A DNA stretch of 64,000 nt, taken from NCBI GenBank assembly GCA_016458225.1, contig JAEMGR010000019.1, positions 62,001-126,000 of the forward strand. The letters are read 5' to 3'. The translations under genes were made by a program, and so were the position numbers. The DNA is from Myxococcaceae bacterium JPH2. GTDB taxonomy: Bacteria; Myxococcota; Myxococcia; Myxococcales; Myxococcaceae. The notes below the pieces were generated by a model. It was not told the DNA's origin, did not search any database, and saw nothing but the letters and a program-made list of their open reading frames with translations. The first letter of the stretch is position 1. Each line of letters begins with the position of its first letter. Shown here one piece after another: positions 5,278-56,173 of the stretch.

Positions 5278-6102
5278 ATGGTCGACCCACGATTCCAACG
5301 CAACCTCGGCGTGATGACCCCGGAGCTGCTGCACAAGCTCTCCCAGACCCACGTGCTCGTGGCGGGCGTGGGCGGCGCGGGAGGACAGTGCGCGGTGGAC
5401 CTTGCGCGCCTGGGCTTCGGCTGCCTCACCCTGGCGGACTTCGATGTCTACGAGCGCCACAACATGAACCGCCAGGTGGGGTGCTTCGAGAGCACCCTCA
5501 ACCAATCCAAGGTGGAGGTGGTGGGGCGCATGTGCCGGGATATTCGCCCGGACCTGCGCCTGCGTCGGGTGTCCGAGGGCATCACCGACGAGAACATCGA
5601 GGACGTGCTCGCTGGCGCCGAGGGCCTGCCCCCCGTGGACTACGTGGTGGAGGTCATCGACATCGCGGGCGCGCGCGCCAAGGAGTCCCTCCACCAGGCG
5701 TGCCGCCGCCGCAAGGTCCCCATCATGACGGGCCTCATGCTGGGCTTTGGCGCCGCGCTCCACGTCTTCCAGCCGGATGCGCCGCTGTACGAGGAGCTCT
5801 ACATCCTGCCGGACGGCCGCATCGACCTGCCGAAGATCATCCCCCACCTGGGCAGCTACATGCTCCAGGAATACATGGACGCCTGCTACCAGGGCCGAGG
5901 CCACGCGCCCACGTGTGTCATTGGCGCCACCACCGCGGCCGGGCTGATGGTGAGTGAAATCATGCGTGGGGTGATGCTGGGCCCCTCGGAGATGGTGTCC
6001 TGGCCCGAGTACCTCTACGTGGACCTCTTCGATCACCGCTACGTGCGCGGCACCATCCCCGCCTCGCGTCCCGGGGCGACGCCGCGCACGGCCACGCGCT
6101 GA
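5278..6102 (+). CDS. E1-like (ThiF/MoeB/MccB-type) adenylyltransferase
   Basis: A 274-residue stand-alone E1-superfamily protein. It has the ATP loop GVGGAGG (30-36), the acidic strand end ADFDVYE (53-59), the HNMNRQ arginine-finger segment (61-66), Lys78 in LNQSK, and an Asp in the VVEVID strand that matches the adenylation Asp. It lacks paired CxxC zinc motifs and a rhodanese domain, so it is not a typical MoeB or a MoeBR fusion. No ubiquitin-like or ThiS/MoaD protein is encoded nearby. Such proteins adenylate a C-terminal carboxylate; here the acceptor is unknown. The ATG at 5278 has a GAGGA upstream. It forms a two-gene unit with the methyltransferase and ends before a strong hairpin. Confidence 0.85.
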   Translation: MVDPRFQRNLGVMTPELLHKLSQTHVLVAGVGGAGGQCAVDLARLGFGCLTLADFDVYERHNMNRQVGCFESTLNQSKVEVVGRMCRDIRPDLRLRRVSEGITDENIEDVLAGAEGLPPVDYVVEVIDIAGARAKESLHQACRRRKVPIMTGLMLGFGAALHVFQPDAPLYEELYILPDGRIDLPKIIPHLGSYMLQEYMDACYQGRGHAPTCVIGATTAAGLMVSEIMRGVMLGPSEMVSWPEYLYVDLFDHRYVRGTIPASRPGATPRTATR

Positions 6103-6116
6103 GCCGCCCAAGACAA

Positions 6117-6156
6117 AGCCCCCGTCTTCCCCGCGCCGCGCGAGGAAGCGGGGGCT
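6117..6156. terminator. Bidirectional hairpin between convergent genes
   Basis: Arms AGCCCCCG (6117-6124) and CGGGGGCT (6149-6156) pair perfectly. After a one-base bulge, CTTCC pairs with GGAAG, giving 13 pairs around a GC-rich loop. It lies exactly between the convergent E1-like gene and the small gene at 6182. There is no clear T-tract, so it may act by stalling or as an RNA-end stabiliser. Confidence 0.6.
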
Positions 6157-6181
6157 GAAGAGGGCCGCGGCCCCGGCCCGC

Positions 6182-6631
6182 TCAGGCGACGATGCCGCGC
6201 GTGCGCGCCTCGCTGATGATGCGGTCGCCGTCCACGCCCAGGCGCTTGGCGATGAACGGCGCGGCCCCTTCCGCGTTCTTGTGCACCCGGATGAACTGGT
6301 CGTCGTACGTGCGCGTGACGATGAGCATCCCGGACACGATGACGCGTTGAAGGTTGTGCTGCAGTTCGCTCCCCTCGATGATGACGTGGATCTCCGAAAA
6401 GAACGGCCGCGCGTCCGACAGCATGTTGGACAGGCTTCGGCGCTGCTCGCTGTTGGGCACCGCCGCCTTCGAACCCGCGCTGGACACCAGAATCATCGGC
6501 TGCTGGAACTGCTGATATGCCTGCTGCATCTTCGAGAAGACCGACAGGACTTCATCCTGGTTCGGTGGCGAGTCCCACCGGAGGAAGAAGACCTTGTCGA
6601 TGATGTCAGTCCTGTAAACCGGAGGTGCCAT
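6182..6631 (-). CDS. Conserved-looking hypothetical cytosolic protein (149 aa)
   Basis: I do not recognise this 149-residue protein. It starts MAPPVYRTDI, has alternating helix and strand character, and includes a segment NSEQRRSLSNML followed by FFSEIHVIIEGSEL. The overall layout (short alpha/beta protein with amphipathic helices and a central hydrophobic strand) is reminiscent of STAS- or SpoIIAA-like proteins found in many myxobacterial genomes, but no diagnostic motif supports that. The start at 6631 has GGGAC 5 bp upstream and AGGAG farther off. No signal peptide. The upstream DNA carries nested inverted repeats. Confidence 0.7.
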   Translation of the reverse strand: MAPPVYRTDIIDKVFFLRWDSPPNQDEVLSVFSKMQQAYQQFQQPMILVSSAGSKAAVPNSEQRRSLSNMLSDARPFFSEIHVIIEGSELQHNLQRVIVSGMLIVTRTYDDQFIRVHKNAEGAAPFIAKRLGVDGDRIISEARTRGIVA

Positions 6632-6767
6632 GGCGTCCCGTGACTCCTTGGTTGATGGGCCGGGCCCGTCCCGGTCCGTTGCGTCTCGTCGAGCAACCGC
6701 GGTGCTGACTCGGCGGGGCTAGCGGCATCCTGCGCTTGCCTCTGGGCGACGAAAGTAGCCCCGAGGG

Positions 6768-6856
6768 CTGACATTGCGCAGACAACACATGATGTGCCCT
6801 CGAGCGCCTGAAGTGTTGTCATGGCGCAGTCTGGCCCATTGCACTGTCTGACATTG
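6768..6856. promoter_or_regulatory. Nested inverted and direct repeats upstream of the 149-aa gene
   Basis: Within the 441-bp gene-free stretch 6632-7072 there is an inverted repeat GACAACAC (6781-6788) / GTGTTGTC (6813-6820). An 11-bp palindrome CACATGATGTG (6786-6796) overlaps its left arm, and a direct repeat CTGACATTG occurs at 6768 and 6848. This could be a regulator-binding region for the minus-strand gene that starts at 6631. No other gene or promoter is evident in the stretch apart from the terminator at its right end. Confidence 0.35.
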
Positions 6857-6984
6857 GACGGTGTCCTGCGACCGCGGGGCGTCTGGATTTACCCGCGCCC
6901 CTCCGACATCCCCCGTCGCCTTCGCACCTGCCTGTCCAATCCCAGTCCCCAAACGCCGTGGGACTGAATTCAAGACAGGGATTG

Positions 6985-7024
6985 GAAAAAAGAAAACCCC
7001 GGGAACCGCGAGGGCTCCCGGGGT
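6985..7024 (-). terminator. Intrinsic terminator of the acylase gene
   Basis: Read on the minus strand, a perfect 9-bp stem (plus-strand arms ACCCCGGGA at 6996-7004 and TCCCGGGGT at 7016-7024) is followed by an almost pure T run, the complement of A-rich 6986-6996. It lies about 50 bp past the acylase stop. A second, bulged hairpin (GCCTCCGCCCT region, about 7033-7056) lies between the stop and this terminator. Confidence 0.85.
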
Positions 7025-7072
7025 GGGGCGCTGCCTCCGCCCTCAAGGAGGGACGGAGGCCGCGTGCGGGGA

Positions 7073-9589
7073 CTAGCCGCCGGTGATGGTGGTGGCGGGG
7101 GCCAGCAGGTTGGCGTTCACGTCCGCATCGGTGAAGAGGATCGGGCGCCACTGCTTCTTGGAGAAGAGCTGCGTCTGGTCCGCGAAGAACGGCGACTTCG
7201 GGTCGTCAGACTCGCTGTAGGTCAGCACGGCCTGAGCGGTCGGGCCGCTGTCGGTGAACTGCATGGCCATGACGAAGCTGCTGCCGTTGTTGATGATGTA
7301 GCCGTCCTTGGTCAGGCCGGTGCGGGCGCTGAGCACGGGGCCGCGGGCGGCGGTCGCGTCCAGGGTGGACTTGAGCGTGCCGTAGGAGACGACGTTGGTG
7401 ACGCCGTCGCGCGACATGCCACCGTGCAGACCGATGCGCGTGCCGCTGCGCGCGGTGAACTGCACCGAGGAGAGCGTCGCGTCGAGCGCGATGCCCGCCG
7501 TGTTCAGCGTGTCCACGGCCTGCGCGAGCTTCACGAGGACCGGGTCGTCACCCTGGGCCGGGGCCGGGGTCAGCGTGTTCGGCGTGGTGATGGGGTTGGC
7601 CGGATCGAACGGGACGGCGAAGAACGTCCCGGCGCTCATCAGGTTCAGCTCGGGAACGGTGCCGCCCAGCTCGCGCCAGATGATGGCGCCCTTGGCGTCC
7701 GCGTCGAAGCGGCCGTTCCACGCACCCAGGATGGTGCAGGCGCGGCTGATGTCCACGTTCTTGTTGTTGTACGGGATGGTCGTCTTGCCCGTGCAGCGCT
7801 CGACCACGGAGGCGCGCAGCGCCTCGGCGGTGCTGCTGCGGTTGCTGAACACCGCCGTCTTCAGCTCATCCATCGTGAACTTCCCATCCTCACCCGAGGC
7901 GCCGGTCGCGCTCTTCTCGGTGAGGGTGATGAGGTTCATGTGCGTACGCGTGGTCTGCGGAACCTTCTCCAGGCCGTGCATGGGCGAGAAGCCCGTCAGC
8001 GGCTGGGCGGGGTTGGCCAGCCAGTAGCTGTCGTTGGCGTTGAAGACGAAGTCGCGGCGGGCGATCTGCGGCATCTTGCTGAAGGGCACCAGGCCCGGGC
8101 TGCGCGCGGTCGGGTCGTTCTGCCACTCGTTCTGGGCCGTGCTGCCGTCCAGGAGCACCACGCCCAGCGTGTCCCAGAAGGTCTTGGTGGCCGGGTCCAC
8201 GCCCTTGGCGTAGTTCCACGTGGCCTGGGCCTCGGGCTTCAGGTTCGGGGTGGGGGAGGCATCGGTGTACCAGGTGTTGCCATCCTTGTCCGCCGCCATG
8301 GTGTTCACCCAGGGGATGCCCTGCGCCTTCGCGTAGGCCGCCTGGAACTCCGCCATGCTCTTCGCCTTGTTCATCGAGTGGAACTGATCGAGGAACGTGG
8401 CGTTGTCGATGTTGGCGTCACGCACGGACAGCACCGACTTGGTGGTCCAGTCGGCCGTGCCCGGGATGGCCATGATGGGGCCGTAGTGGCTGCTGTAGAG
8501 CGTGCGGGTGATGGTGGTGAGCGAGCCCTCGGGCAGCTTCACCAGGACGCTGAACGTGCGCGCCGTCATCGCCCGCTCTTCGGTCGTGCCGTCTTCCTTC
8601 TTGTAGTAGTAGCTGGTCGGCTTGCCCGGGACGAGCGTCAGCCCGTACACCGTCATGCGCGCGCCGGACGAGAACGTGTGCGTCCAGCCGATGTTGTCGT
8701 TGAAGCCGATGAGCACGGCGGGCACGCCCAGCAGGCCCACGCCGTAGATGTTCATCTCACCGGGGACGGTCAGCTGGCTCTCCCAGAGCTTCAGCTCGCC
8801 TTCCCAGGGGAAGTGCGGGTTGGCCATGACCATGCCGCGCCCGGTGGACGAGCGCTCGGCGCCAATGGCCCAGCCGTTGCTGCCGAAGTCCGCCTTGCGC
8901 AGCTCCTTGAGCTGCTCCATGGACGGCTCCACCAGGCGCTGGGCGCCCGTGGTGGCCGGCGGGGTGGCCGCGGCGATGGCCAGCACGAGCTGGTTCACGC
9001 CACCGGTCAGGGTGATGTTGAGGTCGTACGCCAGCAGGTCGACCTCGGTGATGGGCTTGACCCACGCGGCCTTGGTGCAGGGCGCGGGGAGCTGATCCGC
9101 CGGCGTCTCCGCCACGTACTTGTTGTAGCCGGCCACGTAGCCGCGCAGCAGGTCCTTGATCTCATCCGGCTGCGTGTCGAACGCGACGCGCGCCTTGTTG
9201 TAGATGTCCAGCGACAGGTACGCGAGGTCCGAGCCGACGTTCGCGTTGCCGGCGCCAGGACCGTTGTACCGGGCGCGCTCGCTGCGCACCTTCACGATCT
9301 GATCCGCCAGCGTACAGACGTGGTCCTGCGCGAAGGCGTAGGCCTGACCGAAGCCCAGGCTGCCCATGTCCTTCGCCGTGATGTGCGGGATGCCGTGGCT
9401 GGTGCGGCGGATGGTGGCCTCGTACTTCGGGGCCGACGGCGGCGGCGTGACGGGCGGATCCTTGTCGTCGTCACCACAGCCCGCAGCGGTGACAAGTGCC
9501 AGCGATGCGAAGAGAGGAAGTTGCCAACGGGAGGCTCGGAAGAACCGGGCCGCGCCGCGAGGGAGCGATAGGGAGGTGCGGTCGTGCAT
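7073..9589 (-). CDS. Penicillin acylase-family lipoprotein (AHL/aculeacin acylase-like)
   Basis: An 838-residue Ntn-hydrolase precursor. A signal peptide ends at a lipobox-like TAAGC (Cys38). The alpha-chain part has LGFGQAYAFAQDHVCTL (78-94) and RARYNGPG, as in aculeacin-A acylase and PvdQ-type acyl-homoserine-lactone acylases. The autoprocessing site and nucleophile is FGSNGW with Ser237, followed by MVMANPHFPW. Family members hydrolyse amide-linked acyl chains of lipopeptides, beta-lactams or acyl-homoserine lactones after autocatalytic cleavage. The substrate here is not determined by sequence. As a surface or periplasmic lipoprotein in a predatory bacterium it could degrade signals or antibiotics of other bacteria (inference). 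It is monocistronic, with its own terminator. Confidence 0.88.
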   Translation of the reverse strand: MHDRTSLSLPRGAARFFRASRWQLPLFASLALVTAAGCGDDDKDPPVTPPPSAPKYEATIRRTSHGIPHITAKDMGSLGFGQAYAFAQDHVCTLADQIVKVRSERARYNGPGAGNANVGSDLAYLSLDIYNKARVAFDTQPDEIKDLLRGYVAGYNKYVAETPADQLPAPCTKAAWVKPITEVDLLAYDLNITLTGGVNQLVLAIAAATPPATTGAQRLVEPSMEQLKELRKADFGSNGWAIGAERSSTGRGMVMANPHFPWEGELKLWESQLTVPGEMNIYGVGLLGVPAVLIGFNDNIGWTHTFSSGARMTVYGLTLVPGKPTSYYYKKEDGTTEERAMTARTFSVLVKLPEGSLTTITRTLYSSHYGPIMAIPGTADWTTKSVLSVRDANIDNATFLDQFHSMNKAKSMAEFQAAYAKAQGIPWVNTMAADKDGNTWYTDASPTPNLKPEAQATWNYAKGVDPATKTFWDTLGVVLLDGSTAQNEWQNDPTARSPGLVPFSKMPQIARRDFVFNANDSYWLANPAQPLTGFSPMHGLEKVPQTTRTHMNLITLTEKSATGASGEDGKFTMDELKTAVFSNRSSTAEALRASVVERCTGKTTIPYNNKNVDISRACTILGAWNGRFDADAKGAIIWRELGGTVPELNLMSAGTFFAVPFDPANPITTPNTLTPAPAQGDDPVLVKLAQAVDTLNTAGIALDATLSSVQFTARSGTRIGLHGGMSRDGVTNVVSYGTLKSTLDATAARGPVLSARTGLTKDGYIINNGSSFVMAMQFTDSGPTAQAVLTYSESDDPKSPFFADQTQLFSKKQWRPILFTDADVNANLLAPATTITGG

Positions 9590-45773: not shown

Positions 45774-45787
45774 GCTTGCGCGCAAGC
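45774..45787. promoter_or_regulatory. Perfect 14-bp palindrome over a candidate -35
   Basis: GCTTGCGCGCAAGC is self-complementary throughout. It covers TTGCGC (45776-45781), which sits 17 bp from TACAAA (45799-45804), a 4-of-6 match to a -10. Together these form a candidate promoter for the gene at 45837. Confidence 0.5.
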
Positions 45788-45802
45788 GTAGACTGGCTTA
45801 CA

Positions 45803-45833
45803 AACGCAACTCATTTTCAGTTGAAACTGCGTT
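45803..45833 (+). promoter_or_regulatory. 31-bp double inverted repeat, candidate Fur/Zur-family operator
   Basis: Outer arms AACGCA (45803-45808) and TGCGTT (45828-45833) enclose inner arms CAACT (45807-45811) and AGTTG (45819-45823) around an AT-rich centre. The inner part is a roughly 17-19-bp dyad of the size bound by Fur-family regulators. It overlaps the candidate -10 and transcription start and ends 4 bp before the GTG at 45837, which opens the zinc island. Identification as a Zur site is inference from context. Confidence 0.5.
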
Positions 45834-45836
45834 GAC

Positions 45837-46277
45837 GTGAGCATGCTCCGCCGCCATCCCCATCCGAGACACCGAGCCGAGCGCCCAGGAATGCTGGCGC
45901 TGGTGCTCGTGTGCGCGATGGCCTACGCGGGAAGCGTATTGCACTTCGCGCTCGTCCAGCACGTCACCTGCTTGGAGCACGGCGAGGTGATCCACCTGGA
46001 CGAGGTGGCCCGAGACGGACGCCAGAAGGCGCTGGAAGCGGCGTTCGATGACGTCCGCCTCGCCCAATCGAAACGGGCGATGGGGGTGGGGCACGGCGCA
46101 GAGGCGCACTGCCACCACGCCTTCTTCCGCCGAGAGGCGCCCGCTCCGGCGCCGGGCATCTTGCAGTCGCAGGTGTTGTCCTCCCGAGCCAGTCCCGCGC
46201 TCGCCGTGTTCCGCTTCCACGCGGAGCCCGTGGAGCGGTTGCGGCTCGCCCCCAAGTCCTCACCTCCGCGCGTCTGA
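45837..46277 (+). CDS. Small secreted/membrane-anchored protein with VLH-x5-H-x2-C-x-E-H motif
   Basis: A 146-residue protein of unknown function. A hydrophobic segment (about 19-35) acts as a signal or anchor, and directly after it comes VLHFALVQHVTCLEH, giving the spacing VLH-x5-H-x2-C-x-E-H (His36, His42, Cys45, His48). A second cluster, HCHHAF, lies near residue 93. The potential metal ligands and the site next to a palindrome-covered promoter suggest metal binding outside the cytoplasm. The same spaced motif occurs in the gene at 53153, at the far edge of the metal-uptake operon. GTG at 45837 or ATG at 45843 are both possible starts. Confidence 0.7.
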   Translation: MSMLRRHPHPRHRAERPGMLALVLVCAMAYAGSVLHFALVQHVTCLEHGEVIHLDEVARDGRQKALEAAFDDVRLAQSKRAMGVGHGAEAHCHHAFFRREAPAPAPGILQSQVLSSRASPALAVFRFHAEPVERLRLAPKSSPPRV

Positions 46278-46568
46278 GTCCACGTCCGGTGCGCGTGTCC
46301 GTGCGCGAGGGCCCTCGTGTGCCCCGTGGCAGGCGCGCGCCATCCAGGCTCGACCGCTAGGACTCGTGCGCGCGATGAGCGTGCCCGCGTCCTGAGGTGT
46401 CGCGCCGTCGGATGCGCTGCTGAGCGGACCGTGCTCGGCGGATGCCGGCCTCGCGTGGGCTCCCTTCGGTCTCACCGCAGTGCTGCGCGCGCGCCGTGAC
46501 TCGTCTCCTTGGGGACGAGGTGCGGCGTCGTGCGCCCCATTCACGTCGCATCACACTGGAGTCGCACC

Positions 46569-47054
46569 ATGAAGAAGTCCCTGCCCGCAGTCCTGCTGTT
46601 CACCTCGCTGCTCGCCGCGTGTGGCGATGATCCGGCCACTTCGTCCTCTGTCGATGAGGAGGGGTGTGAGCACTTGCAGAAAGGGCCCGGCGTCAGCATC
46701 ACCGCCGTGCGCGAGGGCGCGGGGCCCGCGGTGAGCAACGACCACAAGCGCTACGACATCGCGCTGCAGGACGCAACGGGCGGAAAGGGGGGCGCTGTCT
46801 CGTTCGCGGTGACCGCGGCCGAGGACTACGTCTTCTTCACGAGCGCCGACGTGCCCGTGACGGTGACCACGTCGGCAGGACAGGTCGTCGAGGTGGAAGA
46901 GCACGCGACGAGTTCTGCGTCGTGCACGGACATCCGAGGCCGCCACGTCGTGCCGCTCGGCGTGGGCACGCACACGCTGACCTTCGGCCCGACGCCGGTG
47001 AATCAGGTCTCGCTCGTCATCGAGGAATCGGGCGAGCACGGGCATGCGCACTGA
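46569..47054 (+). CDS. Lipoprotein with His-rich C-terminus
   Basis: A 161-residue lipoprotein (MKKSLPAVLLFTSLLAAC, lipidated Cys18). The mature part begins with an acidic segment and CEHLQKGP, continues as beta-rich sequence (YVFFTSADVPVTVTTSAGQVVEV) with a second Cys, and ends EHGHAH, a likely metal-binding tail. I do not recognise the family. It follows the gene at 45837 by 291 bp in the same direction and probably belongs to the metal-uptake set. A weak 7-bp hairpin (46500-46519) precedes it. Confidence 0.75.
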   Translation: MKKSLPAVLLFTSLLAACGDDPATSSSVDEEGCEHLQKGPGVSITAVREGAGPAVSNDHKRYDIALQDATGGKGGAVSFAVTAAEDYVFFTSADVPVTVTTSAGQVVEVEEHATSSASCTDIRGRHVVPLGVGTHTLTFGPTPVNQVSLVIEESGEHGHAH

Positions 47055-47690
47055 GCCATGGCCAGAGCCGCGCGCATTCTCCCCGATGACGTACGCCGCG
47101 ACGGGGCACGGCAAGTCCATGGCTGCCCAGTCGGAGTCGGACGACGACGCAAGACGGCCATGGAACTGCTGAGCCCCCGAGGAGACGGATCCACGCGCGG
47201 ACGAGCCGTGCGCGGAACGTTTGCAAGGCTCCTCACGAGTGCTCCGAAGAGGCTTCGAGCCGACGCGCGAGGCCCCCGTCGTCGCGCCATGAAGTGAAGC
47301 AACGGAAGCGTGGGGGATGGTCCATCGCGGCGTGACACACGTGGCGACACAACGTGCTGCACGTCGCGCGGAACAAGGGAGGTGCCAGCGTGGGCGCGGT
47401 GACGCAGGCCGCGCGCGCTGGCACCGGAGTTCGGAGTGAACGCGGTGTCGCTCCGATGACCGGAGCAAGAGGAGGACTTCACGCGGGCACCTCCCTTGTT
47501 CCACGTGTGCCCAAGCAGATGGCGAGCGGCCAGCGACAGGTGCCATGGGTGACTGGGCGAACACGAACCCGTGCCGTCGCCCGTTCGAGAACCGCTGTCC
47601 TGCCGATGACGGAGACGAGGGTGTCCCCGCGTGGCGCTTGACGCGCGCGAGGCATTCGCATTTCTAGGCGTCCGGTTCCCAGGAGACGCC
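47055..47690. other. Gene-free stretch containing a long inverted repeat
   Basis: No supportable gene in these 636 bp. Open frames on both strands are Arg/Ser-rich and lack domains. The main content is the inverted repeat at 47370-47502. A 6-bp hairpin GCTCCG/CGGAGC (47449-47465) lies inside its loop. Confidence 0.55.
47370..47502. repeat. 133-bp inverted repeat with 23-bp arms
   Basis: GGAACAAGGGAGGTGCC (47370-47386) pairs perfectly with GGCACCTCCCTTGTTCC (47486-47502). Inside one mismatch, GCGTG (47388-47392) pairs with CACGC (47480-47484), so arms are 22 of 23 complementary. The loop is 87 bp with its own small hairpin. There is no clear target-site duplication. It could be a miniature mobile element or a structured RNA. 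Confidence 0.85.
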
Positions 47691-48239
47691 ATGCCTTCGT
47701 TTCGCCTGAAGCAGGACCAGACCGCGCTGCTCGTCGTGGACATCCAGGAGCGCCTGTGCGCGGTGATGGACCGGGACGACCTGGACCGGATGCTGGCCCG
47801 AACGAACGCGGCCATCGAAGGCGCGCGAGCGCTCGGTCTGCCGGTGCTCGTCACGGAGCAGTACCCCAAGGGGCTCGGGCCGACGCACTCGCTGCTGCGC
47901 ATGCGGTTGGGGGACGTGAAGCCGGTGGAGAAGCTGGAGTTCAGCGCCGCCGTGCCCGAGGTGCTCTCCGCGTTGGGGCCGCGCCGTCAGGTGCTGGTGG
48001 TGGGCATGGAGACGCACATCTGCATCTTCCAGACGATTCGCGACCTCGCGGAGCAAGGCTTCGAGCCCTACCTCCTCGCGGACGCCGTCCTCTCTCGCAC
48101 GGCGGAGGATCGGCGCGTGGGGCTGGAGCTGTCGCGGGACGCGGGGGCGCGGATCCTCACGGTGGAGGCCGCGCTCTTCGACTTGCTCGGGCGCGCGGGC
48201 ACGCCCGAGTTCAAGAAGATCTCCGCCGCGGTCCGCTGA
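47691..48239 (+). CDS. Isochorismatase-family cysteine hydrolase
   Basis: A 182-residue enzyme with the family's catalytic triad: Asp17 in LVVDIQ, Lys60 in QYPKGLG, and Cys111 in METHICIFQT. The family includes nicotinamidases, isochorismatases and carbamoylases; the ETHICIFQT block and small size fit the YcaC/hydrolase branch rather than nicotinamidase (no His-rich metal site is visible). Cytosolic. AGGAG at 47681-47685 fixes the ATG. It converges on the metal permease with 9 bp between stops. Confidence 0.9.
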   Translation: MPSFRLKQDQTALLVVDIQERLCAVMDRDDLDRMLARTNAAIEGARALGLPVLVTEQYPKGLGPTHSLLRMRLGDVKPVEKLEFSAAVPEVLSALGPRRQVLVVGMETHICIFQTIRDLAEQGFEPYLLADAVLSRTAEDRRVGLELSRDAGARILTVEAALFDLLGRAGTPEFKKISAAVR

Positions 48240-48248
48240 ACTCGCGGT

Positions 48249-49121
48249 TCAGCTCGGCTTGCTCACCGCGTTGCGCACCAGTCGAACCGCCATCGCGAGC
48301 CCCACGAGCACGGCCGACACGACTGTCTGCGAGCCGCCTACCGGAAAGTCGTTGAAGTAGGCGAACAGATAGCCACCCACGCCCGCGATGCCCCCGGCGA
48401 GGGTGGCCGCGAGGAACGTCCAGGGCAGGCGCAGGTCCAACACCAGCGCGGCGATGGCGGACACGGTGGAGAACGCGAACACGGGCAGCGAGCCCAGTGC
48501 CCGCGTGGACACGCCCACCATGACGCCGATGGACACCATGAGCACGGTGTCCAGCACGCGAACGGGAAGCCCCTGAACGCTGGCGCCGACTCGGTCGAAG
48601 CTCGCGAAGGTGAGCCCTCGGTACCACCACAGGTGGATGAACAGCACGAGGCCGCCGACAATGGCCACCGTCGCCAACTGCTCGGGCGTCACGAGCACCG
48701 CGGTTCCGAACAAGATGCCCTGGATGTCATGGGCCTCCTGCGAGATGCGGTCGCCCACGAGGATGGCCGCTCCGCCTGTCAGCGCATAGGCCATGCCCAG
48801 CAAGCTCTCGCGAGAGAGCCGCAGTCGAGCGGGCTCGACCATGAGCAGCAGCGTGGCGGCCACGGCCAGCAAGGTGGCGCCCACGACGGGCTCCACATGC
48901 TGACCCAGGTGGATCTCCGCATAGAAGGCCAGCGCCACGCCCAGGCCCGCGGAGTTCGTCACGGCCGCGCTGACGAACACCATGCGCCGCAGCACCACGT
49001 AGACGCTGAGGAAGCCGAGCACGCAGCCTGCGATGAGCGCGCACAGGATGGGATCTCGGAACAGCTCCCAGCCCGCGCGGAACTGCTCCCACTTGGAAGG
49101 GTCAACCAGCGTCTGTTCCAC
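48249..49121 (-). CDS. znuB: Metal ABC transporter permease (ZnuB-like)
   Basis: A 290-residue ABC-3-family permease with eight or so helices. It opens ILCALIAGCVLGFLSVYVVLRRMVFVSAAVTNSAGLG, diagnostic of zinc/manganese permeases, and has the GILFGTAVLVTPEQL and ALGSLPVFAFSTVSAIAALV segments. The GTG at 49121 overlaps the ATPase gene by 20 bp. A longer start at 49205 would add a Thr/Ala-rich tail and a 104-bp overlap. Last gene of the operon. Confidence 0.9.
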   Translation of the reverse strand: MEQTLVDPSKWEQFRAGWELFRDPILCALIAGCVLGFLSVYVVLRRMVFVSAAVTNSAGLGVALAFYAEIHLGQHVEPVVGATLLAVAATLLLMVEPARLRLSRESLLGMAYALTGGAAILVGDRISQEAHDIQGILFGTAVLVTPEQLATVAIVGGLVLFIHLWWYRGLTFASFDRVGASVQGLPVRVLDTVLMVSIGVMVGVSTRALGSLPVFAFSTVSAIAALVLDLRLPWTFLAATLAGGIAGVGGYLFAYFNDFPVGGSQTVVSAVLVGLAMAVRLVRNAVSKPS

Positions 49122-49923
49122 GGTGTGGTCCCGGAGGTGCGCGTTGGCAGTAGTCGTCGCCGTACTGGCGGCGGAATGCGGGGTGACAGAAGACGGTGCG
49201 CGCATCGCCCATCACGATGGCGGACGTCTCTCGGTCGACGAAGAGGAGGACATCGGCGTGCTCGGCGGCCACGATGAGGTCGTGACTCACCACGACGACG
49301 CCCAGCCCACGCTCGCGCGACAGTGCGCACAGGCGCTGCATCGTCTCGCGCTCGGCCACTGCGTCCATGGCGGCCGTGGGCTCATCGAGCAGCACGAGGT
49401 CGGCCTCTGTGGCGATGACGCGCGCGAGGAGGGCGCGTTGTTTCTGCCCCTCGGACAGCTCGCGATAGGGACGGTGGGCGATGGCGCGAGCTCCCGCCGT
49501 ATCGATGGCCGTGTCCACCGCATGGCGGTCCGAGCGCGCGGCGAAGGGGCGCAGGAAGTTCCATCCCGACAGCCGGCCCCAGGCCGTCAGCTCGCGCGTG
49601 CGCACGGGCAGCAGCGCGTCGATGGCGGACGTCTGCGGCACATAGGCACTGCGCACATGCGGCCCCGCCCGATCGACGGAGCCGGACACGGGCTCAATCA
49701 AGCCCAGCAGGGTCTTGAACCACGTGCTCTTGCCGGAGCCATTGCGTCCGATGACGGCCACGAACTGCCCGCGTCGCACCGTCAGGTCGATGGGCGGCAA
49801 CATCGCCTTGCCGCCATATCCGATGACGAGCTTCTCGCAGGTGAGGAGCGGCTCGCCCAGCGCCTTCTCGGCGGGGAGGTGTGAGGCCCCCGCGCTCGAC
49901 GTCTCCGGCTCACCGGCCTTCAC
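49102..49923 (-). CDS. znuC: Metal ABC transporter ATP-binding protein (ZnuC-like)
   Basis: A 273-residue ABC ATPase powering the adjacent permease. Walker A is GRNGSGKST, the signature LSEGQKQR, Walker B LVLLDEPT, and the H-loop VSHD. It has a Q-loop at YVPQTSAIDALLPVRT. The fold belongs to the zinc/manganese/iron-chelate importer class. A GTG start with GGAGGTGA upstream overlaps the preceding gene by 14 bp, so translation is coupled. Confidence 0.93.
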   Translation of the reverse strand: MKAGEPETSSAGASHLPAEKALGEPLLTCEKLVIGYGGKAMLPPIDLTVRRGQFVAVIGRNGSGKSTWFKTLLGLIEPVSGSVDRAGPHVRSAYVPQTSAIDALLPVRTRELTAWGRLSGWNFLRPFAARSDRHAVDTAIDTAGARAIAHRPYRELSEGQKQRALLARVIATEADLVLLDEPTAAMDAVAERETMQRLCALSRERGLGVVVVSHDLIVAAEHADVLLFVDRETSAIVMGDARTVFCHPAFRRQYGDDYCQRAPPGPHRGTDAG

Positions 49924-50767
49924 GCTTCACCTCCGAGGTAGGGCCCAGCCGGGCCACGTTCGCGAGCAGCGCCAGTCGCACGGCCTCGTTCGCGGGCGTG
50001 TCGAGATCCAGCACGCCATCCGCAGCGGGCACGACCGCGGACCAGTCCACCGCATCGAACAACGCGGGCGTCACCTCCAGTTGGAGTCCGAGCAGAACGC
50101 GCGGCTTGTTCTCTCGATCCGAAGGGACATCCAGGGCGTTGTTCAGCACGGCCACGGGCTCGCCTTCGTCTCCATCGGGAGCGGTGAGCTGGGTGAGTCG
50201 GAAGACGCGCTCGCCCTGGACTCGGGGCGTGGCGCGAGTGTCGCGCACGGTGCCGGTGAGGCGCAGCGCGGTGACGCTCCACCGCCCCTTCGTCACGGTG
50301 GTCTGCGGAAGCTCGCATCCGGGCTGACACGTGAGCGCGCGAGCCTCGGGCGCGAGCAGGTCGAGTTCCGCTTCGACCGGCAGGCTCGCCACGGTGCGCG
50401 TGCTGACGCCACCGCCGCTCAGCTCGGCCGCGACTTCGTCATAGGGGATGAGGGCACCGTCATCCCGGTGGCAGTGGCCACCGTGGCACAGCGTGTAGCC
50501 CTCGGGCGGGTTCGCGGGATCGAACGAGGCGGTGCCCGAGCTGCTGCCCGAACTCGCGAGCAGATCGATGTCACCCAACGTCACCGTGGCGTGGGTCAGC
50601 CTCACCTGAAAATCCGAGGCGAGCCGCGCATAGCCCTGACCCGCGTCGCGGTCGGCAGGGGTGACGTAGCCCGCGCGAACGGAGGGCTCCAGAACCGCGA
50701 AGCCCTCGCCGTCTCCGAGCGCGCATCCCGACAGGAGGAGGAGGGGAAGGAGTCGTGTGGCACGCAT
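49910..50767 (-). CDS. Lipoprotein with CHGGHCH metal-binding cluster
   Basis: A 285-residue lipoprotein (LLLLSGC, lipidated Cys15) lying between the substrate-binding protein and the ATPase. The notable part is a CHGGHCH cluster (near residue 94-100) after a Gly/Ser-rich loop, plus CQPGC about 50 residues later. The rest is beta-rich. The cluster is a good candidate zinc-binding site. It could pass metal to the binding protein or to the barrel. I do not recognise it as a named family. It starts 4 bp after the binding-protein stop. Confidence 0.8.
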   Translation of the reverse strand: MRATRLLPLLLLSGCALGDGEGFAVLEPSVRAGYVTPADRDAGQGYARLASDFQVRLTHATVTLGDIDLLASSGSSSGTASFDPANPPEGYTLCHGGHCHRDDGALIPYDEVAAELSGGGVSTRTVASLPVEAELDLLAPEARALTCQPGCELPQTTVTKGRWSVTALRLTGTVRDTRATPRVQGERVFRLTQLTAPDGDEGEPVAVLNNALDVPSDRENKPRVLLGLQLEVTPALFDAVDWSAVVPAADGVLDLDTPANEAVRLALLANVARLGPTSEVKREGR

Positions 50768-50771
50768 GGCG

Positions 50772-51695
50772 TCAGTTGCCCTTCCCGGCGAGGCCCTGTT
50801 CGAGCTTCGTCACGAAGTCCTCCATGTGCTGGAGGTACGTCTGCCCTCCGCGGAAGTCGGTGCCACCGGGAATCACGACGAGCGGCGCGGGAATCTTGGA
50901 GGCGACGAGGCGCGCGGTGCCGTCGGGGTAGTACTCCTCGCGCAGCACCAGGCGCGCCTTCTTGGTCTTGCCCACGGTGAGCACCTGGGCCACGTGCGAC
51001 GGGTTGGGCGGGATGCCGGGCTTGGGCTCGAGGAACTCGATGGTGTCGAACCCGAGCCAGTCCTGCAGGTACGCCGTCGTCTTGTGGTACGCGATGACGG
51101 GGGCGCCGCGCAGGCCCGCGAGTCGCTTCTCCCAGCCCGTGCGCGCCGCCTCCAACTCACGGCTGAACTTCTCCAGGTTGGCCTTGTAGGTCGCGGCGTT
51201 CGCGGCATCGAGCTGCTCCATGCGCGCCTCGATGCCCTTCGCCACCGCGAGCGCCGCGCGCGGGTCATAGGTGAAGTGCGGATTGCCGCCGGGGTGCACA
51301 TCGCCCTGGCTGCGGTCCACCTTTACGGTGGGCGCCTCCAGGACGCGGACGAACTGGGACGCGTCCAGGTGGCCGGGGTTGCCCGTCTGGATCTTCTTGT
51401 TGCGAGCGCCGATCTGCAGCGTGGGCAACCAACCGATCTCCAGATCCAGACCGTCGGCGATGAGCAGGTCCGCGCGGTTGAGGGCCAGCGCGAGGTTGGG
51501 CTTGGCGTCCACGAAGTGGGGATCCTGCGTGGGGAGGGCCAGGGACTGGACCTCCACCTTGTCTCCGCCCACCGCCTTCGCCAGCGCGGCGAGGTCAGGA
51601 AGGGTGGCGACGACCTTGAGTTCCGCCAGCGCGGGCGCGGCGAAGAGGGACACGACAGCGGCACACAGGGCCGCGAGCTGAGAGATGAATCGCAT
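50772..51695 (-). CDS. znuA: Metal ABC transporter substrate-binding protein (ZnuA-like)
   Basis: A 307-residue cluster A-I binding protein with an N-terminal signal peptide (cut after APALA). It carries the usual three metal histidines: DPHFVD, NPHFTYDP and YHKTTAYL, and a late acidic REEYYPDGT. It lacks the long His-rich loop typical of many ZnuA, having only a short GDVHPGGNPH before the second ligand, so specificity could be zinc or manganese. The ATG at 51695 has AGGAGC upstream. Confidence 0.9.
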   Translation of the reverse strand: MRFISQLAALCAAVVSLFAAPALAELKVVATLPDLAALAKAVGGDKVEVQSLALPTQDPHFVDAKPNLALALNRADLLIADGLDLEIGWLPTLQIGARNKKIQTGNPGHLDASQFVRVLEAPTVKVDRSQGDVHPGGNPHFTYDPRAALAVAKGIEARMEQLDAANAATYKANLEKFSRELEAARTGWEKRLAGLRGAPVIAYHKTTAYLQDWLGFDTIEFLEPKPGIPPNPSHVAQVLTVGKTKKARLVLREEYYPDGTARLVASKIPAPLVVIPGGTDFRGGQTYLQHMEDFVTKLEQGLAGKGN

Positions 51696-51715
51696 GTCAG
51701 GGGCTCCTGGATGGG

Positions 51716-53071
51716 TCAGAAGGCATGGGCGCCGTGGGCACCCGTCACGACTTCAAGCGCGAGAAAGGCCGAGTAGTCTGGCGTGTCGCGCCAGCCCACC
51801 CGGTCCGTGGCGGCCTGCAGGCGCAGGCGCGAGAACTCGGTGGGCCAGTACGTCACCTGCGCGGAGATGCGCTGGCGGTTGGTAGTCCACTCGGGATCGA
51901 GCGGATCCTCCGCGACGAGCCCCGCGCGATTGTGCGCGGGCGTCCCGAACTCGTAGCGCACGCCCGTGCCCCACCGCTTGGCGAAGCGCCACACCGTCTG
52001 CGCGTAGCCGCCCCAGTCCGTGAGCAGGTCGTCCGGAACCTGGCGCCGGCGGTAGAGGACCTCCGCTTGGAACACGAGCTGCTGGGAACTCTCGGCGCGG
52101 ATGGGGCGGAACTTCAGATACACGTCCGTCCCGTAGATGCTGGTGTGGTTGCGGTACCCGGTGGGATTCGGCCCCGTGGCGGCGGACAGGCCCCAGAGCA
52201 GGGACAGGTCATCGCTCAGCGGGAAGAACTGTTTGAGGGCGCCCGTGTACTGAAGATCCCAGGGCGAGAGCACCCGCTCGTTCGCCGCGCCGAAGAAGCT
52301 GCGCGCGGTGCCTTCGCCCTTCGCGTCGGTGGTGCTGCCGACGACCTCGACGTACCAGGGCAGCGGGGTGAGCCAGGAGGCTTCCACGCCCAGCCCTCGG
52401 TTGCCCTCGCCGCCAAAGTCCCGGCTGATGACGAACGGCTGGTCCACGAAGTCCCACGTGTGGGGATGCGTGGAGTTGATGCGGCCGAAGCGGGTGAGGA
52501 ACTGTCCGGCGCGAAGCTGAAGGTTGGCCGGAAGGTCCAGGGTGGTGACGTAGGCCTCTTCAATCTCCACGCCGAACTGGCTGAAGACGAGGTTGCTGTC
52601 GAAGCGGAAGTACGGATCCACCACCGAGCCGATGGACAGCTCCAGTTGCTGGAGGTTGAACCCGTTGGAGGTGGGGTCGTGCCCGCCGCCTTGCAAGGGC
52701 TCCTTGGAGGAAAAGCCCGCCGCAGCGATGTCGAGGATGAAGCTCAGGTCCAGGAGGTTGTTGCCGCCACTCAGCGCAGACGGAAGCTTCAGGGGCGTTA
52801 TCCCCGAGTCATCCGTCGCGGTGGGTGAGGCAGGTGAGGCCCCCGAGCTTGCCGGTGGCTTGCCGGAGCTGTCCTTGCCCACGGCGGATTCAATCTCCGC
52901 CATGTCCTCGGGACTCAGGGTGGGGGCCTCGGTGCTCGATTCAGGAGGCGGGGAGTTGTCGGAGGGAGGGGAAGACTGCGGCTGCTGGGCGCGCGCGGCC
53001 GAGCCACACAGGCCCAGGGCGAGCGCAATGCCCATGAGAACGCCAGGAACCTGGCGCGACGGAAATGACAC
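51716..53071 (-). CDS. Outer-membrane beta-barrel protein of the metal-uptake operon
   Basis: A 451-residue protein with a signal peptide (AQQ after ARA), a 70-residue Pro/Ser-rich periplasmic linker, and then alternating amphipathic strands (for example FNLQQLELSIGSVVDPYFRFD, LQLRAGQFLTRFGRINSTHP). It ends in AF, a terminal aromatic as expected for barrels. There is no TonB plug domain visible. It resembles porin-like proteins annotated in other bacteria as zinc-regulated outer-membrane receptors. A role bringing metal across the outer membrane is inferred from the operon. GTG start with GAGGAGC upstream. Confidence 0.8.
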   Translation of the reverse strand: MSFPSRQVPGVLMGIALALGLCGSAARAQQPQSSPPSDNSPPPESSTEAPTLSPEDMAEIESAVGKDSSGKPPASSGASPASPTATDDSGITPLKLPSALSGGNNLLDLSFILDIAAAGFSSKEPLQGGGHDPTSNGFNLQQLELSIGSVVDPYFRFDSNLVFSQFGVEIEEAYVTTLDLPANLQLRAGQFLTRFGRINSTHPHTWDFVDQPFVISRDFGGEGNRGLGVEASWLTPLPWYVEVVGSTTDAKGEGTARSFFGAANERVLSPWDLQYTGALKQFFPLSDDLSLLWGLSAATGPNPTGYRNHTSIYGTDVYLKFRPIRAESSQQLVFQAEVLYRRRQVPDDLLTDWGGYAQTVWRFAKRWGTGVRYEFGTPAHNRAGLVAEDPLDPEWTTNRQRISAQVTYWPTEFSRLRLQAATDRVGWRDTPDYSAFLALEVVTGAHGAHAF

Positions 53072-53152
53072 GAGATGCTCCTCGAAACCGGACGCCCGCG
53101 AACTGCCCAGGGCGGACGTCGACGCAAAAGACCTGCAATGGCCAACGAAGCG

Positions 53153-53581
53153 CTACGCGGACAGCGAGCGCACGGGCGGCGAGGCCTTCGGAGCGGTGTC
53201 GAGGACAGCGAGGGGGGTGAACGGAGTCGGCGGAGCAGTGGCCGGCGGGCTCACCGTCCAGCATGTCTGCGGGCGGACACCCGAGTCAGCGTGCAGGGCC
53301 TGCAACTGCGGGGCGCCCGTGAGGATGGGGCACGTCTCGTGGGTGGGACGCGTCGAGTCCGCCACCGCGGCGGGAACACTCGAGAGCGTGGGCGCGCTCG
53401 CCGCGAGGCGCGCCATCCCCATGCTCGTGCCGCGCGCGCTCTCCTCGAAAGCCTGATGCTCGGGGCAGAAGCGGTGTGCATGCTCCTGGACATGCAGCAC
53501 CATGCCCAACGGCTGGACAGCCCAGAACGCGACGAGCAACGTCGCGACGATGCGGGCAAGGCTGTGGGAGCGCGTGGGCAT
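53153..53581 (-). CDS. Small membrane-anchored protein with VLH-x5-H-x2-C-x-E-H motif
   Basis: A 142-residue protein, first gene of the metal operon. An N-terminal hydrophobic helix (about 11-29) is followed by VLHVQEHAHRFCPEH, with exactly the spacing VLH-x5-H-x2-C-x-E-H seen at 45837 (His30, His36, Cys39, His42). The rest is Ala/Ser/Pro-rich and probably disordered. There are two further Cys near residues 84 and 107. No Shine-Dalgarno is visible. The shared motif and location at both edges of the island support a common family role, perhaps metal sensing or delivery. Confidence 0.7.
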   Translation of the reverse strand: MPTRSHSLARIVATLLVAFWAVQPLGMVLHVQEHAHRFCPEHQAFEESARGTSMGMARLAASAPTLSSVPAAVADSTRPTHETCPILTGAPQLQALHADSGVRPQTCWTVSPPATAPPTPFTPLAVLDTAPKASPPVRSLSA

Positions 53582-53737
53582 CAGGGCAGGAGAGGGATCT
53601 TGCTTGCTCTACTGACGGGGTTCAAGGGTGTCAAGGCGAGGCGGCTCGGCCAGCGGGCCGAATCCACGGATGCGGCGCTGCGTTCTCGGCGCGCTGGAAA
53701 TGGGGCAGGGCGCGGTGCGTTGAGAGCGTGACTCCTC

Positions 53738-54079
53738 ATGAACGGACAAGCGGGCGGGCAGTTCATTCCAGTGGCGCGACTCTCGGACCTGGATGCGCGA
53801 GGCCGCGCGGTGGTGCGCGTGGGTGACGCATTTGTTGCGCTCGTGCGGGTGGGCGAGCAGGTGTTCGCGCTCGCGGACACCTGTCCTCACCGAGGGGGCC
53901 CGCTGTCCCAGGGGGACGTCGCGGGGCACCTGCTTCATTGCCCGCTGCATGCCTGGCCGTTCGACCTGCGGACGGGGGTCTGCCCCGAGCGCTCAGGCGT
54001 TCGTGTTCGCATCTATGAAGTGGCGATGCGAGGCGACGAGATCCTCGTGGACGCTTCGGGTAGCTTCCCCGCCGTCTGA
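53738..54079 (+). CDS. Rieske [2Fe-2S] ferredoxin-like protein
   Basis: A 113-residue single-domain Rieske protein. The cluster ligands are CPH (Cys49, His51) and CPLH (Cys68, His71), and the spacing and the following AWPFDLRTG match the NirD/dioxygenase-ferredoxin type. Such proteins carry electrons to oxygenases or reductases. No partner is adjacent, except a GTP-cyclohydrolase homologue 31 bp downstream. It is divergent from the metal operon with 156 bp between starts. Confidence 0.92.
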   Translation: MNGQAGGQFIPVARLSDLDARGRAVVRVGDAFVALVRVGEQVFALADTCPHRGGPLSQGDVAGHLLHCPLHAWPFDLRTGVCPERSGVRVRIYEVAMRGDEILVDASGSFPAV

Positions 54080-54110
54080 ACGCTGGCCAACGCCAGGGAG
54101 TCGCCACCCC

Positions 54111-54749
54111 GTGCCTTCGTCCCGAGTCCGTCGTCGTCCCGCCCCCTCGTCGCGCGCGTCCGCTGGAGCCGCGAGGCCCGATCCGACCGCGATGGCCGCG
54201 GCGGTGGGGCAGTTCCTGCGTGCCGCGGGGCTCCCGCTGGAGGACGCCAATCTGGTGGACACCCCGGAGCGTGTGGCCGAGGCCTGGGTGCACGAGTTCC
54301 TGGACGGCTATCTCCAGACGCCTGAGTCCGCCCTGGGCGAGACCTTCCCCGCGCCGCCGGATTCCTCCGGGGAGATGGTCGTGGTGACGGACCTGCGCTT
54401 CCATTCCATGTGCCCGCATCACCTGCTGCCCTTCACGGGGCGCGCGCACGTGGCCTATGTGCCGGGCTCGCGTGTGGTGGGCTTCGGTCGTCTCTCCGCG
54501 TTGGTGGACTGCTTCGCCCACCGGCTCATCCTCCAAGAGGATCTCGCTCGCCACGTGGCCGGTTCGCTGGCCCGCGTGCTCGGAAGTCCCGCCACCGCCT
54601 GCATCATCGAGGCGGAGCAGTCCTGCCTGCGCCTGCGTGGCGATCACCAGCGGGACGCCACCACGCATGCGGAGGCCTATGAAGGACGCCTTCGGCGCGA
54701 TGGACCGCTGCGGCGTGAGTTGTGGGCTCGACTGGGAGCGCGGCGATGA
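54111..54749 (+). CDS. Divergent GTP cyclohydrolase I homologue
   Basis: A 212-residue T-fold protein of the GCYH-I family, which normally opens GTP to dihydroneopterin triphosphate. The zinc ligands are retained: Cys101 and His104 in MCPHHLLPF, Cys172 in QSCLRLRG. The catalytic His before the second Cys is Gln170, and the Ser of the usual GLSK is Gly (GFGRLS). Glu143 is kept. Such changes suggest reduced or altered activity. The N-terminus is Arg/Ser-rich. The GTG start has CAGGGAG 11 bp upstream. It overlaps the next start by ATGA. Confidence 0.8.
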   Translation: MPSSRVRRRPAPSSRASAGAARPDPTAMAAAVGQFLRAAGLPLEDANLVDTPERVAEAWVHEFLDGYLQTPESALGETFPAPPDSSGEMVVVTDLRFHSMCPHHLLPFTGRAHVAYVPGSRVVGFGRLSALVDCFAHRLILQEDLARHVAGSLARVLGSPATACIIEAEQSCLRLRGDHQRDATTHAEAYEGRLRRDGPLRRELWARLGARR

Positions 54750-56173
54750 CGGAGCGCGCGCACTTCACTCGCGTGGAGCCTGCGCGCGTGGCGAGGCTCC
54801 TGGAGGACCTCGCGCGGGTGCTCGCGCCCGGGCAGGTGCGCCAGGATGTGGAGACGCTCGCGGCTTATGGCCGTGACGAGTCGGACAGCGGGGAGTTCCT
54901 CCCGGACGCCGTCGTCTTTCCGGAGGACACCGCGCAGGTCTCCGCTGTGTTCAAGCAGTGCCAGGCGCACGGCGTGCCCTTCACTCCGTGCGGCGCGCGC
55001 AGTGGCAAGAGCGGGGGCTCGCTGCCCCTGCGAGGTGGGCTGGCCGTCAGCTTGGAGCGGATGAACCGCATCCGCGCCATCTCGGTGGAGGACCTGACCG
55101 CGGTGGTCGAGCCCGGGGTCATCACCGGGGACCTGATGCGCGCGGTGGAGGAGCGAGGCCTCTTCTATCCACCGGATCCCAACTCGTGGGAGTTCTGCAC
55201 GATGGGGGGCAACGTCGCGGAGAACGCAGGCGGCCCTCGCGCGCTCAAGTACGGCGTCACGCGCGACTACATCATCGGACTCACCTGGGTTACGCCGGAG
55301 GGCGAGGTCCTTCAGGTGGGGCGCCGCACCATCAAGGGCGTGGCGGGATATGACCTCGTGGGCCTCTTCGTGGGCTCGGAGGGCACGCTCGGCGTCGCCA
55401 CCGAGATCATCCTCCAGCTCATCCCGCTGCCCCGGCGGGTGATGACGGCGCTCATCGTCTTCCCCTCGGTGCTGAGTGCCGCGCGCGCCGTGTCCGCGGT
55501 GCTGGCTGCCGGCATCCTGCCCCGCTGCCTGGAACTCATCGATGATGTGGCCATCGCCGCCATCGTCCACCGCGGGAGCTTCGCGTTTCCTCCGGGCGCG
55601 GGCGCCGCGCTCATCGTCGAGGTGGACGGCAACTCGCAGGAGGGCGTCCTCGCCGAGCTGTCCCATTTGGGGGACATCTGCGATCGCCAGGGGGCCACAC
55701 AGTCACTCGTGGCCCAGGACGACTCGCAGCGAGAGAAGCTGTGGGCCGCGCGCCGGGTCATCTCTCCCGCCCTTCGAGCGCTCAAGCCCGCGAAGATCTC
55801 CGAGGACATCGTCGTCCCACGTTCGCGAATCCCGGAGATCATCGAGCGCCTGAAGGCCATGGGCGCCGAGCTGGGCCTCACTGTCGCCACCTACGGCCAC
55901 GCGGGCGACGGCAACCTCCACGCGAACATCCTTTACGACGGCCCCGCTCAACGTTCGTTGGTGGAAGAAGCGTTGCGCCGCATGTTGTTGATGACGGTGG
56001 AGCTGGGTGGAACGATCACCGGCGAGCACGGTGTAGGCCACGCCAAGCGGGAATATCTGGCGCTGGAGCAGTCCGCGGCGTTGCTGGATCTGCAGCGACG
56101 GCTCAAGGCCTTCTTTGACCCATCAGGCCTGCTCAACCCGGAGAAAATGTTCCCCGCGCCCAAGCGTTCCTAG
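54746..56173 (+). CDS. glcD: FAD-linked oxidase, glycolate/lactate oxidase GlcD-like
   Basis: A 475-residue FAD-linked dehydrogenase. The PCMH FAD-binding part has PCGARSGKSGGSLP and TMGGNVAENAGGPRALKYGVT, and the C-terminal cap has YGHAGDGNLHANI and GEHGVGHAKREYL. The family oxidises glycolate, D-lactate or similar 2-hydroxyacids. No GlcE or iron-sulfur GlcF subunit is adjacent. The ATG overlaps the previous stop by 4 bp. Confidence 0.9.
   Translation: MTERAHFTRVEPARVARLLEDLARVLAPGQVRQDVETLAAYGRDESDSGEFLPDAVVFPEDTAQVSAVFKQCQAHGVPFTPCGARSGKSGGSLPLRGGLAVSLERMNRIRAISVEDLTAVVEPGVITGDLMRAVEERGLFYPPDPNSWEFCTMGGNVAENAGGPRALKYGVTRDYIIGLTWVTPEGEVLQVGRRTIKGVAGYDLVGLFVGSEGTLGVATEIILQLIPLPRRVMTALIVFPSVLSAARAVSAVLAAGILPRCLELIDDVAIAAIVHRGSFAFPPGAGAALIVEVDGNSQEGVLAELSHLGDICDRQGATQSLVAQDDSQREKLWAARRVISPALRALKPAKISEDIVVPRSRIPEIIERLKAMGAELGLTVATYGHAGDGNLHANILYDGPAQRSLVEEALRRMLLMTVELGGTITGEHGVGHAKREYLALEQSAALLDLQRRLKAFFDPSGLLNPEKMFPAPKRS

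Follow-up and report, generated by a model that had tools for sequence, protein, structure and literature searches.

The metal-uptake locus and its conservation

We analyzed a 64,000-nucleotide stretch of DNA (hereafter the window) from Myxococcaceae bacterium JPH2, whose genome is Citreicoccus-like and a close relative of Citreicoccus inhibens. The window encodes a metal-uptake locus in which an ATP-binding cassette (ABC) importer of the ZnuABC type shares an operon with an outer-membrane barrel, a lipoprotein containing CHGGHCH and a small His/Cys protein, as an earlier note made from the letters alone had described; all genes that the note named are open reading frames where it had placed them. 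The genes of the locus are listed below.

53581-53153, minus strand: HC2, an exported His/Cys protein of 142 residues that heads the barrel-znu operon; its C-terminal end is APKASPPVRSLSA
53071-51716, minus strand: barrel, a porin-like outer-membrane beta-barrel of 451 residues, with BBP2 matches among its homologues
51695-50772, minus strand: ZnuA, a ZnuA/AztC-type metal-binding protein (PF01297, E 2.8e-46)
50767-49910, minus strand: lipo1, a lipoprotein with CHGGHCH
49923-49102, minus strand: ZnuC, an ATPase (PF00005, E 2e-25)
49205-48249, minus strand: ZnuB, a permease (PF00950, E 6e-36)
45837-46277, plus strand: HC1, a paralogue of HC2 with 146 residues, ending APKSSPPRV, that heads the lipo2 unit
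46569-47054, plus strand: lipo2, a lipoprotein with a PPC-like jelly roll and a His-rich tail ending EHGHAH

The minus-strand operon (53581 to 48249) reads HC2-barrel-ZnuA-lipo1-ZnuC-ZnuB, and a second unit, HC1-lipo2, runs from 45837 to 47054. Proteins of PF01297, PF00950 and PF00005 are encoded together, as in ABC-3 importers. In family searches of the window's proteins, none of barrel, lipo1, lipo2, HC1 and HC2 rose above a Pfam or NCBIfam cut-off, and we found no description of a system with this gene content in the open-access literature (subscription papers lay outside the search). The earlier note, too, had not recognized it as a described system.

Searching named genomes with lipo1 recovered 22 loci, in Corallococcus, Myxococcus, Pyxidicoccus and Archangium and reaching as far as environmental metagenome-assembled genomes. 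Nearly all keep the order barrel-ZnuA-lipo1-ZnuC-ZnuB, and most have an HC gene upstream. The order small HC protein-barrel-ZnuA-lipo1-(lipo2)-ZnuC-ZnuB repeats in about 30 loci with lipo1 identity as low as 25-35%, and the operon is therefore more than a chance arrangement. We also surveyed 195 Myxococcota genomes with profile searches, finding barrel matches in 139 genomes, HC in 103, lipo1 in 78 and lipo2 in 73. Lipo1 lies directly downstream of a barrel in 75 of 81 matches; four of the six others are short and weak, and a contig end truncates one more. The expectation that the accessory proteins co-occur with the importer was thus borne out for the barrel and lipo1, which are not mostly transporter-less. 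Ratios of nonsynonymous to synonymous substitution (dN/dS) between the window and C. inhibens are 0.08 for HC2, 0.28 for HC1 and 0.12 for lipo1, showing that these are translated genes under selection. Together, these genes form a genuine, conserved metal-uptake module.

Distant homologues of the barrel that keep the C-terminus GAHGAHAF are encoded ahead of ZnuA and a permease in Vibrio campbellii (locus L106) and Sulfurovum mangrovi (L107). Within the stretches fetched, no ZnuC-type ATPase adjoins either cluster. In Sulfurovum, the open reading frame before the barrel (L107:3842-4195) encodes a small protein with HHH...CxxC and a C-terminal HAPP; it shows no match to the HC profile, and is possibly an independent leader of the HC-like kind discussed below.

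Importer, barrel and lipoproteins

The window's ZnuA scores below the NCBIfam equivalog cut-offs for both AztC (84 bits against 350) and ZnuA (42 against 268). Its relatives in the PDB are of the ZnuA type, and the three-His ligand set of zinc-type proteins is present: His60, His140 and His204 are invariant in 32 of 32 sequences, as is an additional residue, His134, within GDVHxxGNPH. Like ZnuABC and AztABCD importers, the system pairs a three-His binding protein with an ABC-3 permease and an ATPase. Unlike them, its operon adds a barrel, and lipo1 and lipo2 fall below all Pfam and NCBIfam cut-offs. For comparison, AztD is a periplasmic protein able to pass zinc to the binding protein (PMC6689063).

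Fourteen of 26 barrel homologues match the BBP2 porin family (best E 1.5e-4); none of the 26 matches Plug, and there is a single stray match to a TonB-type barrel (E 0.004). Exactly five His residues of the barrel are invariant (131, 202, 204, 446 and 449), and the protein ends in GAHGAHAF. We propose that the barrel is a zinc porin. Caulobacter znuK/L/M and ZnuD-type TonB-dependent zinc receptors admit zinc at the outer membrane under zinc limitation (PMC4176598), as the barrel would; the window's barrel differs from these receptors in being a porin-like protein of some 450 residues without a plug domain match.

Alignment of lipo1 homologues gives the signature FDPxxPPxxYxxCHxxHCH, in which the residues of CHxxHCH are invariant. 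An AlphaFold (AF2) model of lipo1 is of high predicted quality (predicted local distance difference test score, pLDDT, 90.6), and a Foldseek search of it against the PDB gave no significant match. We propose that lipo1 is a periplasmic metal-binding accessory protein.

The model of lipo2 (pLDDT 86.7) shows a jelly roll resembling collagen-binding/PPC domains (fold Z 11.0), followed by the His-rich tail. The earlier note had placed lipo2 outside the operon, which is true of the window; in distant relatives, however, the gene lies between lipo1 and ZnuC (loci L020, L033, L038, L039, L041 and L042), and diverged copies occupy the same position in L035, L036 and L037. Because lipo2 sits inside the znu operon in these relatives, the window's separate HC1-lipo2 unit is best seen as part of the system. 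Weaker lipo2-like matches (PPC domain; E about 1e-15 to 1e-20) also occur at other places in many Myxococcaceae genomes, several per genome, indicating that lipo2 is one member of a more extensive family of lipoproteins.

A putative relay through the barrel, lipo1 and lipo2 is plausible. The envelope-spanning relay that the earlier note had suggested is supported in part: these three proteins form a conserved unit with the importer. Its remaining element, a small His/Cys protein acting as anchored chaperone, is not supported.

Small His/Cys proteins at the head of each unit

Neither HC protein contains CHGGHCH, the motif that the earlier note had ascribed to a second small protein outside the operon. 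An alignment of 26 members with a mean column identity of 30% leaves invariant only H-x5/6-H-x2-C-x2-H, a later Cys and a C-terminal APKxSPP; in HC2, the invariant His and Cys residues are H30, H36, C39, H42 and C84. The proteins begin with a hydrophobic segment and end, in 87 of 87 distinct sequences, with [A/S]PKxSPP plus one to eight residues. The codons of this motif vary synonymously (one Pro is encoded by CCT in 39 sequences, CCG in 37, CCA in 8 and CCC in 3), and in most sequences the Cys of the metal motif and the final Pro are 96-99 residues apart. This free codon variation and near-constant spacing reveal selection at the level of the peptide.

The position of the HC genes is equally regular. 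Among the 150 matches listed, HC lies directly before a barrel in 73 and before lipo2 in 62 (together 135), and in none does it lie downstream of a partner gene; in two loci, L186 and L187, it precedes ZnuC instead. Extra copies number six, spread over six genomes and four genera; each stands before the gene for a Cys-free ribosomal protein L33, with a COG0523 GTPase gene next in line. Other copies are followed by genes for TonB-dependent receptors or for a MerC protein. A search for a COG0523 homologue in the window's own genome came back empty, which is weak evidence that the L33-COG0523 unit is probably absent there. A first place kept despite changing neighbors, with only a metal motif and a Pro motif at the extreme C-terminus shared, is characteristic of leader peptides.

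Could the HC proteins instead be stable, membrane-anchored metallochaperones that move zinc between the barrel, the lipoproteins and ZnuA? Their N-terminal hydrophobic segment, their invariant His and Cys residues and their co-occurrence with the importer would suit such a role. Against it, HC comes first in its unit and also heads units with neither barrel nor importer (L33-COG0523, TonB receptors, MerC), its best-conserved feature is the extreme C-terminal APKxSPP rather than a folded domain, and one genome carries two copies, one for each transcription unit. With a Pro-rich end like those of the copper sensors CruR and CutF in addition, the anchored chaperone is not supported, and we consider it unlikely.

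CruR (Bp2923 of Bordetella pertussis), an exported protein of the DUF2946 family, heads a copper-uptake operon. It carries a CXXC motif and, three residues from its C-terminal end, an RAPP motif; in the proposed mechanism, copper relieves ribosome arrest and triggers Rho-dependent termination (PMC9426467). The arrest has been confirmed in vitro (PMC12992588). CutF of Rhodobacter capsulatus follows a related scheme of opposite sign, in which copper brings about the stalling and a copper oxidase is thereby switched on; its authors allow that some relatives may sense metals other than copper, and the main text of the paper contains no mention of zinc (PMC9973294). Like CruR, the HC proteins are small and exported, stand first in a metal operon (before barrel or lipo2 in the 135 matches above), and place a metal-binding motif at near-constant distance from a Pro-rich motif just before the stop codon, which in CruR mediates arrest. 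With CutF they share a Pro-rich C-terminus, a candidate stem-loop near the next Shine-Dalgarno sequence and, as we propose, the function of a nascent exported metal sensor. They differ from CruR in motifs (HxxxxxHxxCxxH and APKxSPP against CXXC and RAPP) and in the metal (zinc, as we infer, against copper), and whereas CruR heads a TonB copper receptor, HC heads ZnuABC, L33 and COG0523 genes. The CXXC or CXXXC motif of CruR and CutF is absent from HC, where HxxxxxHxxCxxH takes its place. Only two of the 26 members match DUF2946 (PF11162), at best with E 0.002 and below the gathering score; a DUF2946 match over the cut-off occurs in one of the 195 genomes, and CopL is matched only at E 0.03. 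Membership of DUF2946 proper is ruled out by the Pfam cut-offs; it looks as if HC works like CruR, by analogy, without counting as a member of that family.

Zinc, copper and the control of the two units

COG0523 genes and ribosomal-protein paralogues are zinc-starvation genes of the Zur regulon in other bacteria (PMC2770081). Since HC heads L33-COG0523 units, genes of known zinc-starvation types, zinc would be the common denominator of the genes that it precedes. Together with the type of ZnuA, these units lead us to favor zinc over copper as the likely metal.

The alternative is a copper importer, with lipo1 as a copper binder resembling MbnP, which is a copper-binding protein, and the HC proteins as copper-responsive homologues of CruR. 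MbnP leads the structural matches of the lipo1 model (PDB 7l6g, from Methylosinus; Z 8.5, 3.8 Å, 175 residues), a borderline result with the next match at Z 7.9. This hint of kinship found no support in sequence-profile comparison: hhalign against Myxococcaceae MbnP gave a probability of 24% and aligned the N-terminal part alone, no Pfam match to MbnP (PF20243) occurs among 29 lipo1 members, and the Cys/His motifs of the two proteins differ. Although CruR and CutF are copper sensors and two HC members reach DUF2946, the scarcity of DUF2946 and CopL matches, the zinc-type ZnuA and the extra HC copies before Cys-free L33 and COG0523 genes argue against copper, and we regard this reading as quite improbable.

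The regulatory features of the two units are as follows.

45803..45832, upstream of HC1: imperfect inverted repeat AACGCAACT...ACTGCGTT, at the position of the Zur-like box ATGCAACnnnGTTGCAT in relatives
53072..53152, minus strand: gap of 81 nucleotides between the HC2 stop codon and the barrel start codon, with hairpin arms at 53120-53112 and 53099-53091, 9 nucleotides upstream of the barrel Shine-Dalgarno sequence

The Zur-like box ATGCAACnnnGTTGCAT was predicted for Desulfovibrio (PMC545781). Sites scoring at least 11 occur in 16 of 32 regions upstream of HC1, against 12 of 1627 background windows, and nearly always lie near -63; they also precede eight of 12 other HC copies, including those of L33-COG0523 units. 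In the window itself, the site before HC1 is weaker and scores 10. For HC2-barrel units, just one of 60 upstream regions holds a site at score 11. A genome-wide scan, which the earlier note had called for, gave 23 sites in the window's genome against six in a control; the ten sites inspected did not point to an evident zinc regulon. The genome encodes two FUR-family regulators. Elsewhere in it, a strong Zur-like palindrome, ATGCAACCAGGTTGCGT (L190, 1501-1517), falls at the 3' end of a gene whose product resembles ZIP-type metal transporters.

An ordinary Zur-controlled znuABC operon with a lineage-specific porin and lipoproteins, in which HC is incidental, would agree with the boxes before HC1 and L33-COG0523 units and with the two regulators, but it leaves the conservation and fixed position of HC unexplained and the HC2-barrel unit without a box, and we give it little credence.

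A hairpin about 8-9 nucleotides before the barrel Shine-Dalgarno sequence recurs in several Myxococcaceae genera, where it appears conserved by eye. It is merely suggestive, because GC-rich shuffled sequences form comparable stems; in single GC-rich sequences it is mostly not significant, and RNAalifold gave no consensus-structure signal on full alignments of the HC-lipo2 and HC-barrel gaps. A Rho-type signal downstream of HC was also considered and set aside, the C-over-G bias being slight.

Flanking the locus are an isochorismatase gene (47631-48239) and, divergent from the HC2-barrel operon, genes for a Rieske ferredoxin, GTP cyclohydrolase I (FolE) and a FAD-linked oxidase (53738-56173). 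This trio remains adjacent to the operon in most Myxococcaceae loci examined.

Overall, we favor, with moderate confidence, a zinc-uptake system whose HC genes encode zinc-sensing leaders of the arrest type. Zinc would cross the outer membrane by way of the barrel; in the envelope it would be bound by lipo1 and lipo2, which would help hand it to ZnuA, and ZnuBC would import it. The HC gene at the head of each of the two transcription units would be a cis-acting sensor rather than part of the relay. As it is exported, the nascent HC chain could bind zinc through H-x5-H-x2-C-x2-H and the later Cys. When zinc is scarce, the ribosome would be arrested by APKxSPP a few codons short of the HC stop codon, and in this stalled state it would sustain expression of the genes downstream. 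Once zinc was bound, the ribosome would be freed and these genes shut off, in line with the mechanism proposed for CruR and copper.

Several observations weigh against this model. The HC motif is xSPP and not RAPP (RSPP was included among the motifs of a published screen), HC lacks both CXXC and a DUF2946 match at the Pfam cut-off, and the HC2-barrel gap of 81 nucleotides is short next to the 162 nucleotides in CruR. Some barrel-ZnuA-ZnuC-ZnuB operons, such as that of L185 (about 5538-9238), have no detectable HC upstream. The metal could also be copper, as the best structural match of lipo1 is MbnP and the DUF2946/CruR relatives are mostly copper-linked.

More tentatively, and with slightly less than even confidence, we suggest that the zinc-starvation regulon of Myxococcota is run by zinc-sensing nascent leaders of the APKxSPP family, one per unit, as a translational counterpart to Zur. 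Its units would be barrel-ZnuABC-lipo1, lipo2, Cys-free L33 with COG0523, and the TonB receptors. The nascent-chain metal sensors characterized in the literature covered respond to copper (PMC9426467, PMC9973294), and we found no zinc-responsive arrest peptide in the open-access literature (subscription papers lay outside the search). If the model is true, nascent-chain control would extend to a second metal, zinc, across several unlinked zinc-starvation units, and HxxxxxHxxCxxH ... APKxSPP-stop would serve as a search signature for more such leaders. The five-His barrel is a candidate for a non-TonB zinc route across the outer membrane, a poorly understood step, and a testable role is offered for five window proteins without Pfam or NCBIfam recognition. 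A translational counterpart of Zur would then be tied to a previously undescribed zinc import system with an outer-membrane barrel.

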